A stretch of DNA of 64,000 nucleotides from Actinostola sp. cb2023 (Eukaryota; Cnidaria; Anthozoa; Actiniaria; Actinostolidae): assembly GCA_033675265.1 (NCBI GenBank), contig JAUJYZ010001007.1, positions 1 through 64,000 of the forward strand, given 5' to 3'. Positions within the stretch are counted from its first letter, which is position 1. Each line of letters opens with the position of its first letter. The notes below the pieces were generated by a model. It was not told the origin of the DNA, searched no databases, and saw only the letters and a program-made list of their open reading frames with translations. A program made the translations under genes and the position numbers. Positions 15,059-23,289 of this stretch are shown in pieces.

Positions 15059-15760
15059 TTAAGAGCGGATGTCAGTAAGGATCGAGAATCGCCGGTCAAC
15101 GATGATTTTGGTATAATCCTCATATTTTGTCTGAAGATACTCTTGGTCGAACTATTTTCAAAAATCATATTTAAAAGTTCCAGCGCTTTTTTATTTTTGA
15201 GAAATTTGCGAAAGTTTGAAAATGCGTTCAAAGTGCGGTTTTGCCCTCGGTCAATTACCAATATTTACGTGCGAGAACGAAGCGCCGTAAAAGTCCAACA
15301 CTAATTCCAATCGATTTCAAACTTTCTACAAACTTAAACCAGTTATTCTTGATTACGATTCACGTAAAATTTATTTTAGATCTGTAGGAAATGTTACTTT
15401 GCGGGCAATTTTAAACGTCCGCCTGCAGGAGCTCAGAACTGACACCTAAATATAGGCTATTTTTAAAGCACAAATACTACTCCTGGTACCTAATTGTTGG
15501 ACAATGAAATGTCACAGCCTTATTCTCTGGTCATTCAAGTGTCTTCACTCCAAATTTCAACCTTTAACTCGAATTATTTCCTTTCCGGAAATCCGAGCGT
15601 CCGTGGTAATATGCACGGATCGAATTACATTAATATTGAGGCAGCACGCATACTGGAACTGTAATGTAAGCCGATAAATATTACATTTCTTGTAAACATA
15701 CACAATCTACTAATTACTTCAAACCTACAGGAAGGCAACATGCAACAGCAATATTTGTGA
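15059..15760 (+). repeat. left terminal inverted repeat
   Basis: Matches the reverse complement of 22591-23289 over its full length with few mismatches. A 70-codon frame inside it appears in both arms and is read outward toward the element end. It has no recognised domain and is probably fortuitous. Confidence 0.9.
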
Positions 15761-16353
15761 AGAATTAAAATGTTGGGTTTCACCTCGATGTAAAAACCTC
15801 ACAAGCCTAACGGTATCATATTTGTGAGTTCTAACTCTTTACAAAGTAACCTAATTAGTTCTACTTGTTGCTGTTAATTTCTATATTTTTCTCTGTGGTA
15901 GCTACATAGCCATTTTCTAACAAGATTTATTTTGCATTTGAGTGACGCCAGTTGTGAGCTTTGTAGTTTTTACACCGAGGATGAGCCAACATTTTGAACT
16001 AGAACATTTTGCTAACATCAAAGTAATTAGCAAGACTTAGCGAATTGCCAACAAGCCACCTACAAAGTTCGAACTGATCAAATGAATGTGGTCACTGTAC
16101 TTTCAATTGGTTGATTTTTGTTCTAGCTGGTCGTCGTTGTTATTTTTATAGCGATTTGCTCTCTATAACAGAGAATTTAATATCGGGTTGTGATCAAAAT
16201 CTATCTCTGCACGTGCATAATTGACATGTGTAACGCAACGCCAACAAATAGATCACGCATGGAAGTGGAAGATTTCGCAATTCCAGCACTGGAGCATGCG
16301 GTGTGTTTCTAAAGTTGGCGTGTTGTAATGAACGTTTCTACGTTATTTGCTAC
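15761..16353. other. internal leader region of transposon
   Basis: No recognised coding sequence. It lies between the left arm and the first modelled coding exon, so promoter, 5' leader or an unrecognised first exon may be here. Confidence 0.4.
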
Positions 16354-19300
16354 ATGGCACATTGCAGCTATATAACACTTTTTCATAACACGGATTGTAA
16401 GCCCTGTGGCGTACATGATGATTATCCGTTCGAGCTGGCGTACATGCTGCTCCAGGATTGCACCAAGGACGTTAGCAGTCATTTAGGGCCATGGCACCTC
16501 AGCGGGGATGAGGGGGCGAACACTGAGATGAAGCTCCTGCTTGCACGAGCCGGTAAGATTTTCGCTCTGAAGAGTTTTGTAGCTGTGGGGTTATTCTTGC
16601 TAAATATCACTAAAATATTGGTCACAGGGGTGTTTTCAGTGGAGGAAAAGTACAGGTTGCTTAACATATGCCCACGTCACAGAGCAGACTATGGCATTCG
16701 CTGGAGAACGAGGAGGAGCAATTGTGCAGTACCGCGTTCATTGGCGGCACACAAATCAGTTAATGCCAAGGGGGCCTTCCGAATAAACAGCCAACAATCT
16801 GCATACATTTTACGCGAGACCAATACTCTTGTTGCGATTGGAATACGTAAGTTAATTATTAATGTTTTTCAGATTGTTCATTAAGGACGATCTCGAGTAT
16901 AGCGTAGTCTTACACACGACCATATACGACATATCTTGCAATGTATAACAATAATCGTTGAAAATCATAAATCATCGAAGCGGAGTATGACCGCAAAGAT
17001 TTCTGGGAAAGGAGTGTTACACGAAAGGTGACTACCCGGGGGGTGACTCCCATATATAAAGTGATGGGGATGCTCGTCAGAAATATTGAAAATGACCCCT
17101 AAAAGGTACCTGAATCTTGCCCAGGTGGGCATGGCAACAAATAATTTTTAACCCTAAAAGGTACTAACTCTAAACTGTCATTCCGGCTGTCATTGTCTTA
17201 TCTCGGGTATCTTATTTACTGACAAACACCCTAAAAGGTACCGGCTTAGTCTCTTGCGGTCTAGATTTGCGACACCCTAAGAGGTACCAAATCGCGGATC
17301 TGGACCCCTAAAAGGTACGACGAGCATCCCAACCACTTTATATATGGGAGTCCCCCCCGGGGGTGAATAGCGCTATACATTGGATAAAATTTATTGGATT
17401 TCTCAAAACCTATGAACTGTTCAGAAAACATGTTATAGGTCTGGATAAGAAAATTGATGTTAACACTTCTGTAAATCATGCACGTCATGTGACGTTGGCT
17501 TCCTCAATAAAGATTATATATATTAACCTTTCTTTTATTACTTGAACAAAATACCTCTTTCCTTTCTTTAGCAATATGCAAACTATGTAACGAACGGCTT
17601 TCGAAATCTCTGGCTCATCCATTTCTGGAAGCAATTCCTGTTGAGTCCACCTTGCGACCTGTATCACCTGTCGTCGTATCAACTGAAGAAATAAAACTGA
17701 AGGTATGTGACAACACACAATATTTTAAACCGGACCTATCGTGCTATATAACGTGGTAGAGCTTTATCACCTAACTCTGGAACTAAAAAGAGAAATATAA
17801 ACCATGTCAATTAGCAAAACGAACTAACTATTGACTAACTCTCACAGGAGTGCACTACAAGTTGCTCAGTCGAGGAGGAAATGACGGACAGTGATACATC
17901 ATCTGGCTCGAATCTCGCTTCACAGTTTGCTCAGTTAGAGATAGCTCGAGAAGATGATGACACTTTCCTTAGCCCTGCAGACACAGTATCCACCACCAGT
18001 GACGAAGGTCCCACTGCAGTGGCAGCACAGCCTCTCGATAAGCTCAATAAGTTTCTTGTTTCTACTAACATCGCGCCTGTCACCACGCCATGGATGGAGT
18101 TGCAAAAAGCCAGTGACAGTACAAGAAGACGTTACACAAGTCGTGCTGTGGAAATCGTTGTGAAAGTCTTGCAGACGATCAACCCCAGAGATGCAGGATC
18201 CCTGTGGAAGGCTATTTTGTCGTCCGCAGCCATGGAGAAGGCTCTTGGGCTGGATGATCTTCCACAGACATCCAAGGAATATCTCCAGGCTCTCGCTGAG
18301 GCATACAGTCATGCTGATAGCTGGGAGACAAGGAGGCAGATTCTATCGATCATGTCGGGTGTAGCAAGCTTCAAAGCTATCGCCTTCTACATCCCAGGAT
18401 TGACCAGTTACCGTTACAGCTTGGCCAACCTTTATCGCCTACAGTACGGCTGCGGCGCTCCACTTGAACATATTCCAACCTTACGACTCAGAGTCGACCG
18501 ACGGCAGCTTGACCACTTCTTGTCTTTTATTACAAGTCCCCACCTGGTGCAGGATATGCCGTTCGGGAAAAAGGTCTTAAAGCTGTCGTCCGGTCAGATG
18601 ATAGAGGTTCCAAATGTGATCCGCACCATGATCCCAAAGAGGATTGCACGCCAGTACACGCAGTACTGCGAAGAGACTACATTCAAGCCTTTCAGCGAGC
18701 GCACCATGTTGCGAGTGCTATCCGAATGCAAGGCATCAGTACGGAAGTCTCTTCAAGGGCTCGACTACTTCGCAGCAGATGGTGCTCGGGCATTCGACGA
18801 TTTGACTGCCTTGGTGCGTCAATTGGGAGCGCTTCGTCAGGCCAAAGACTGAGAAGTACAACAGATCGAACTTCTGAAAGCGGCGAAATTATATCTCAAG
18901 GGTGATTTCAAGGTAATTTTAGTTTCATTATTGTTACATGTAAGCAGGTGATCTAATCCTGATTGAGAAATCATAGCGGGGCTGGCTCGTCTAACCTCGT
19001 CTGTGTACGTAATTGTCCTGAAAAAAAGGCAGAAACTTTGAACATTTTAATATTCAGACTCAAAACCTATTTATTTATTCACTAGATATTTTTTCTTTCC
19101 CTCCAGCTCAATGCATTATATTATTAGTTTTTTTTAGATTAGTTTATATTTGTAAGCACCGCGAGACTTTTGTGGGTGCTATATTGTTATTGTTGTTGTT
19201 ATTATTATTTATTTATTATTATTATTATTATTATTATTATTATTATTTATTATTATTATTATTATTATTATTATTATTATTATTATTATTATTTATTATT

Positions 19301-21447: not shown

Positions 21448-22590
21448 TTGGCTAAATTTTGAGGCGACGTATAGAGAGCTCAATACATGTACATTGCAGA
21501 TCATTGCAACTGCGGATTGTTTTGTTTTGTTTCTTTAATTTGTTCAAGTTTTTACTATACGGCATCGCTACAAATGTAATAACTGAATGTGAATGATGAT
21601 ATGGTAGCCTCCTCCGCATGAAACCCTTCGATTATGGGATCCCCCAGTCCCTCACGGTCTGCCAACGGCCGAGACCACAGGACACCCAGAGAAGAGAAAA
21701 GCCGGTGAGAGAGAGAGAGAGAGAGAGAGAGAGAGAGGCATGAGGAGGAGGCTAGACTAAAGGCTAAGTTTCCTTGATCGTTAGGGTCGCCGAAAATAAT
21801 GTTCACGATTGCTCAGCGAGCCGGCCTAGCGATCGCAGGGGATTTTTCCATCTGAGATAAAACATGATTCAGCGATCGCAGCGATCACACGGAAACTCAT
21901 GGGAAATGAAGAATTGTTCGGCAAGATACAGGGGTGGGGTGGGGATAAATTCCAATGCACACTAAAGGAATAATGTTTTCACTAGTTCGAGATAACGGAG
22001 GTTTTCAGGATAACCTAGTTCTAAATAGGTTTAGGCTAAGTAATAGTTTTAATTTATTTTATTACTGACATTATATTTTATTTTGTAGTGAAATTCAAAA
22101 CGTAGTATGAAATCCTACTGACCAACAATTATGTGGCTATGTAGAACACCGATAAATTAGTACAGTTAGCGGTCAGCCAAGTTAACCTCTGTTCATGTTA
22201 TATACACGTACACCTTAATCTATTTGGGTTTTAAATTGTAATAGAGCTGACAGCAACCTAATGTTTACATATCTGTGCGAGTCAAGTACCGCACTACGAG
22301 TGGTCAATTACATATGACTTGGATCATACATTAATCTCGAACCTAGCCTGCGAAAAGCAGCCGATAGGAGAAAATAAGAGAAATAAGGCTCGATTCATTT
22401 TTGTATCTATTGGTCATGGTTTCTTGTCTTTCTTTATGTAGCTGAACAGCTGCTATTAGAAGAGAAAATCAATCCAATTTTATTGATCAATAAAAAGACT
22501 CGTGTTTACCGCTTGAGCTATCCGGCACGACTTGTTGACAGTCACTATCCACCGTATGAAAGATGCTTTTGATCCCAAACCTCGACTTTC
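21448..22590. other. 3' internal region of transposon
   Basis: It follows the transposase stop codon. A (GA)n microsatellite sits at about 21710-21736. No further gene or clear polyadenylation signal was recognised before the right arm. Confidence 0.5.
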
Positions 22591-23289
22591 TCACAAATAT
22601 TGCTGTTGCATTTTGCCTTCCTGTAGGTTTGAAGTAAGTAGATTGTGTATGTTTACAAGAAATGTAATATTTATCGGCTTACATTACAGTTCCAGTATGC
22701 GTGCTGCCTCAATATTAATGTAATTCGATCCGTGCATATTACCACGGACGCTCGGATTTCCGGAAAGGAAATAATTCGAGTTAAAGGTTGAAAGTTGGAG
22801 TGAAGACACTTGAATGACCAGAGAATAAGGCTGTGACATTTCATTGTCCAACAATTAGGTACCAGGAGTAGTATTTGTGCTTTAAAAATAGCCTATATTT
22901 AGGTGTCAGTTCTGAGCTCCTGCAGGCGGACGTTTAAAATTGCCCGCAAAGTAACATTTCCTACAGATCTAAAATAAATTTTACGTGAATCGTAATCAAG
23001 AATAACTGGTTTAAGTTTGTAGAAAGTTTGAAATCGATTGGAATTAGTGTTGGACTTTTACGGCGCTTCGTTCTCGCACGTAAATATTGGTAATTGACCG
23101 AGGGCAAAACCGCACTTTGAACGCATTTTCAAACTTTCGCAAATTTCTCAAAAATAAAAAAGCGCTGGAACTTTTAAATATGATTTTTGAAAATAGTTCG
23201 ACCAAGAGTATCTTCAGACAAAATATGAGGATTATACCAAAATCATCGTTGACCGGCGATTCTCGATCCTTACTGACATCCGCTCTTAA
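22591..23289 (-). repeat. right terminal inverted repeat
   Basis: Inverted partner of 15059-15760. It ends in CGCTCTTAA, directly abutting the first, partial copy of the 991-bp tandem repeat. Confidence 0.9.

Follow-up and report, generated by a model that had tools for sequence, protein, structure and literature searches.

The element and its gene

The DNA analysed here, which we call the window, comprises positions 1 to 64,000 of contig JAUJYZ010001007.1 from the sea anemone Actinostola sp. cb2023, and therefore measures 64,000 nucleotides. Between 15059 and 23289 it holds an interval that opens and closes with a TTAA duplication, in which a single plus-strand gene lies between two long inverted arms (Table 1). 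The element proper extends from 15063 to 23285, about 8.2 kb, and both of its termini read GAGCGGATGTCAGTAAGGATCG inward from TTAA. We consider it a genuine, recently mobile, TTAA-inserting DNA transposon, belonging to an abundant animal family whose catalytic core has no Pfam model.

The outer 653 nt of the arms (15059-15711 and 22637-23289) agree at 652 of 653 positions by exact count. Past them, the arms run on as a diverged stretch of 68 nt with 85% identity, and the complete arms measure 702 and 699 bp and are 99.3% identical. A preliminary description of the locus, made from its letters, had proposed an 8.2-kb transposon with long inverted repeats. The arms of about 700 bp, the TTAA duplications and the single gene between them bear this out.

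The gene was rebuilt as six exons, with borders predicted at GT/AG sites that keep the frame. Together they make up 1170 codons plus a stop, with one TGA in frame. The six-exon structure of the preliminary description was thus retained and its length of 1166 codons corrected. The C2HC finger named there does correspond to a match to Pfam zf-C2H2, which is weak and falls below the cut-off. The long reading frame shows purifying selection.

Table 1. Coordinates of the element, its gene and its putative functional residues in the window
Feature	Position	Strand	Basis or remark
Left target-site duplication TTAA	15059..15062	.	sequence, flank reads
Right target-site duplication TTAA	23286..23289	.	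sequence, flank reads
Left arm (terminal inverted repeat), 702 bp counting TTAA	15059..15760	+	one mismatch to the right arm in the outer 653 positions
Right arm (terminal inverted repeat), 699 bp counting TTAA	22591..23289	-	
Left terminus GAGCGGATGTCAGTAAGGATCG	15063..15084	+	pattern common to hundreds of other ends
Right terminus, 22 bases identical to left	23264..23285	-	
Exon 1	16354..16552	+	start placed by comparison with homologous L043/L044 N-terminal frames
Exon 2, conserved CP.HR...W.R....C region	16628..16846	+	
Exon 3, C..C pair	17572..17702	+	
Exon 4, helical region in a relative's model; holds the in-frame TGA	17848..18912	+	
In-frame TGA stop	18850..18852	+	breaks the gene of the window copy
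Exon 5, zinc-knuckle-like C.H.H...C..C, then RNase-H-like DDD catalytic core	19451..20447	+	
Probable zinc-binding motif C30-H32-H34-C38-C41	19538..19573	+	alignment conservation
Catalytic D114, NDW, in strand 108-116	19790..19792	+	D in 239/241 rows, one A, one gap; predicted model
Catalytic D197, QDNAGC, end of strand 191-197	20039..20041	+	D in 235/241 rows; predicted model
Catalytic D238, AADR, first turn of helix 236-253	20162..20164	+	D in 239/241 rows, two gaps; predicted model
Exon 6, C-terminal region containing the finger and the stop codon	20546..21447	+	
C2H2/C2HC-type finger, weak	20695..20760	+	Pfam zf-C2H2 E 0.0077, 17.1 bits vs cut-off 25.2

Copies, ends and target sites in the genome

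The genome was searched in an assembly of 424 Mb and 1594 contigs. A DNA search with the left arm returned a copy of 8235 bp (C914), inserted at another TTAA and 99.46% identical over its full length, whose arms match the left arm of the window at 653 of 653 and 652 of 653 positions. A second full copy (C649), at 98.25% identity, has one arm interrupted by 6.2 kb, and a third locus (L032, on C1300) carries a 3784-bp copy with an internal deletion. The flanks of the window, C914, C649 and C1300 copies differ from each other; they are therefore separate insertions. The near-identity of the copies points to recent movement. The preliminary description had suggested recent activity and proposed a search for full copies with the same termini. 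The C914 and C649 copies answer that search, and recent movement is well supported.

A host gene caught by chance between two repeats would explain the introns and the long reading frame under purifying selection. However, the exon-5 core matches at least 121 stretches of the genome (816 candidates, 120 scored), copies with arms lie elsewhere, and ends of the same type border an element whose gene is 43% identical. Many of the core matches are stop-free and some score equally, suggesting near-identical groups; among 18 sequences compared, four groups contain protein pairs that are 97-100% identical. A single-copy host gene devoid of arms, named in the preliminary description as what would speak against a transposon, is contradicted by the matched stretches and the armed copies. 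We rejected a host gene on account of the copies at unrelated TTAA sites, and regard it as extremely improbable.

TTAA was found on both sides of 15 of the 16 elements for which both ends were read, indicating a duplication of fixed length. Among the loci from the left-arm search, 26 of 27 distinct ends carry TTAA, a count that leaves out L009 (no match), L010 (matches only from base 111) and one duplicate flank. The 16-element count is the fairer one, since the left-arm query itself began with TTAA. The 22-base end pattern GAGYGRRTGYCWGWNAGRANCG, taken without TTAA, occurs 415 times in the genome (191 + 224), and the reversed pattern does not occur (0 + 0). For 100 of these 415 places, which were listed individually, neighbours within 10 kb face inward in 32 cases, outward in none and the same way in one. 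The commonest spacing among the inward pairs, about 1.85 kb, is that of 22 of them, which measure 1846-1865 bp. Four such elements (L048, L049, L050 and L052), which consist mostly of inverted repeat, have arms of 698-701 bp. Across 11 elements measured, arm length ranges from 105 to 1008 bp.

More distant members carry related ends. An element on C1570, with a length of 7684 bp and 737-bp arms, has the end TTAAGAGTGGGTGTCTGAG and a transposase core 43% identical to that of the window. A further gene, 63% identical, is found on C1524 and C1164. The C1524 locus has inverted arms of about 960 bp, with one end reading TTTAGAGCC and the other rearranged, and one end of the C1164 locus reads TTAAGAGCCATTGCCTG. 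The strongest indication that the ends are the substrate of this protein is that gene and end stay together across such divergence.

Some further observations concern the copies and their surroundings. Intron 2 of the window copy holds a 328-bp insert (17035-17362) resembling a miniature inverted-repeat transposable element, with inverted ends of 44 bp (91% identity) that open with CCCGGGGGG. Internally the insert repeats CCTAAAAGGTAC, and the C914 and C649 copies contain its inverted ends as well. The deletion copy on C1300 sits at the end of an apparent open frame. In the window, the right flank (23286-26377) consists of a 228-bp partial unit followed by about three tandem units of about 992 bp, 98-99% identical, and TTAAATGC occurs close to the start of every unit. 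The first border of this array coincides with the right TTAA.

Catalytic core and relation to known superfamilies

Conservation of the core was scored on a 241-row alignment of exon-5 relatives, of which 240 sequences entered the motif test. The residues of the probable zinc-binding motif are conserved in 226 (C30), 218 (H32), 224 (H34), 226 (C38) and 228 (C41) of the 241 rows. The full DDD triad is present in 232 of 241 rows, and D197 and D238 are spaced by 40 residues in 239. The acidic motifs pointed out in the preliminary description (NDW, QDNAGC and DPQGGKG-x3-R) are all present. The third acid, by contrast, is to be placed at the D of ADR and not at that of DPQ, on grounds of both structure and conservation: the former is D in all 239 non-gap rows, the latter D in 192 and E in 45 of them. 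In predicted models, the core takes on the fold of RNase H and integrases, its triad is of the D-D-(40)-D type, and the three acids occupy the expected positions. The predicted fold resembles the cores of retroviral integrases and of the mariner transposase Mos1: in these as in the model, strand 5 is followed by a helix that carries the third acid, and there is no inserted domain. These enzymes nevertheless show no match at the level of sequence, and their duplications and ends are different. A viral Foldseek library returned weak matches, several of them of RNase-H type. Chains of hAT, piggyBac and RAG were not among the 50 matches listed in each of two VIA-align comparisons, which is no evidence of a difference.

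The preliminary description could not place the product in a named superfamily, and this holds for Pfam and NCBIfam, neither of which contains a significant model for the catalytic core; nor did any named superfamily in them match the profile clearly, which would have spoken against a new family. Pfam matches of 28 members fell into 22 families, each in at most two members, the best with an E of 0.0014 in one member. They included no piggyBac model at E≤1, and the one transposase match was to IS66 (one member, E 0.082). THAP was likewise absent at E≤1 by Pfam from exons 1-6 and from the relatives L043, L044, P0123, P0185 and P0208. NCBIfam returned nothing for the core, exon 6, P0185 and P0123, and two matches far below the cut-off for exon 4. 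Against solved structures, the core sequence gave two chance-level matches (E 0.13 and 1.1) and the profile none.

The TTAA duplication invites comparison with piggyBac, whose transposases also have a DDD triad. Yet the ends of the elements read here start with GAG, whereas the hallmark termini of piggyBac are given as CC[C/T]T in one report (PMC2872659), and the 28 members gave no piggyBac profile match. A piggyBac-like element was rejected for its wrong termini and lack of a profile match, and we see next to no likelihood in it.

A divergent Kolobok lineage deserves more consideration. Kolobok is described as having TTAA duplications and 5'-RR...YY-3' ends (PMC9587614), and the element shares both, its ends being GA...TC. 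The same account gives Kolobok a third acid E and a C/DxxH motif plus finger between the second and third acids (PMC9587614), and another states that it usually comes with a THAP domain (PMC6004289). In the present family, however, the third acid is D in every non-gap row, the C/DxxH motif was found in the corresponding interval in 0 of 240 sequences, and this interval of 40 residues would hardly leave space for the Kolobok finger. The family also lacks a Pfam THAP match. An ordinary Kolobok was rejected on the third acid, the C/DxxH motif and THAP, and a divergent lineage seems unlikely to us.

Sola3 elements duplicate TTAA, the Sola groups are distant from one another, and DUF7869 proteins are presumably Sola2-like. 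With its acids read from the consensus, DUF7869 (PF25273) would share a probable D..D..D order with the present family; in both, the second acid probably falls within an [SQ]D[NS] motif, and D may be the third. The hhalign probability was nevertheless 0.15% for the whole and 0.25% for the core, at the level of the reversed control (0.15%). Because the Sola groups are so distant from one another, this null result is a weak argument against Sola3. For Sola in general, a review describes a DDD transposase, 4-bp duplications, sizes of mostly 2-9 kb and inverted repeats of 11-1124 bp (PMC10741241). The triad, the duplication length, the size and the long arms of the element all agree with this. By contrast, Sola2 families are reported to have inverted repeats of 12-21 bp and AT-rich, AWWT-type duplications (PMC3627910). 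A Sola3-like group, compared through the published description of Sola, is the likeliest single placement. The chances seem to us evenly balanced that the element belongs to the named Sola superfamily, group Sola3, and that Repbase lists the family by this or a related name.

The family could alternatively represent a DDD transposon superfamily that has not yet been catalogued. This animal superfamily would be characterized by a DD40D integrase-like core without inserted domain, a conserved TTAA/GAG end and repeats often near 700 bp. It would have been active in a sea anemone until very recently, or be active there still, and would also occur in corals and lancelets. The absence of significant core matches in Pfam and NCBIfam, and of a significant sequence relative among solved structures, is consistent with it. 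Among the matches listed, the named protein relatives belong to sea anemones and stony corals, to one octocoral and to Branchiostoma, and are mostly annotated as "uncharacterized" or "hypothetical"; a full-text search of open papers returned, among the matches listed, no recognisable description of the family. However, the repeats of corals, sea anemones and lancelets have long been catalogued, which makes it likely that the family already has an entry, whatever it is called. We advance an uncatalogued superfamily as a tentative and rather doubtful possibility. The label "possibly undescribed" in the preliminary description may hold, but the element agrees with the published features of Sola.

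By whatever name, the element is very likely to operate as a DDD transposon specific for TTAA, given the TTAA flanks in 15 of 16 elements, the shared ends and the DDD core. We are confident that it is an autonomous-type DNA transposon, now mutated, from a large animal family that moves by means of a DDD transposase and takes TTAA as its insertion site. The protein encoded by the gene would bind the long inverted ends, possibly through its N-terminal helical region, Cys/His motifs and C-terminal finger. The RNase-H-like core, in which D114, D197 and D238 would coordinate metal ions, would then cut at the boundary between TTAA and GAG, and joining of the ends to a staggered TTAA cut would leave a copy of TTAA on each side. 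We infer movement by cut-and-paste rather than by copying, and that one enzyme also serves the elements of about 1.85 kb, which are probably non-autonomous.

Several observations weigh against this interpretation. Each of the three full copies compared has a lesion in the gene: the in-frame stop in the window, a 19-bp insertion in exon 5 in C914 (where exon 4 is stop-free), and small gaps in C649. The C1300 element is the exception among the 16, with AAAA on one side and TTAA on the other. At the window locus an empty site could not be demonstrated, as the left flank contains no continuation of the tandem array of about 992-bp units. Finally, the full-length model of a relative reached a predicted template modelling score (pTM) of 0.54, and the Foldseek matches were weak.

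Neighbouring features, distribution and significance

Elsewhere in the window, positions 31562-39882 are occupied by a satellite in which a 98-bp unit recurs in 84 copies (95%); it ends close to a change of sign in the window's GC skew. Three frames were read from their letters. A minus-strand frame of 527 amino acids (8221-9804) has a PHD-like start, a FLYWCH-like stretch and the look of a MULE-like transposase. The other two resemble a gag-type zinc-knuckle protein (55598-56509) and a reverse transcriptase fragment (62890-63930).

Within Actinostola sp. cb2023, the protein P0121 is 99% identical to that of L044, with a match that covers 81%. When viral and prokaryote contig collections were scanned with alignment A1, using two short peptide patterns each and hence with limited sensitivity, no relative was found.

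If the family is indeed uncatalogued, it would add to the DDE/D transposases a group with an integrase/mariner-like fold, whose TTAA targeting would have evolved independently of that in piggyBac and Kolobok. With hundreds of ends and 99.5%-identical copies in one genome, the element is a candidate for a laboratory transposition assay. Since no Pfam model covers the core, the "uncharacterized" gene predictions of corals and sea anemones that match it are probably transposases and could be relabelled as such, which would hold even if the family proves to be Sola3.

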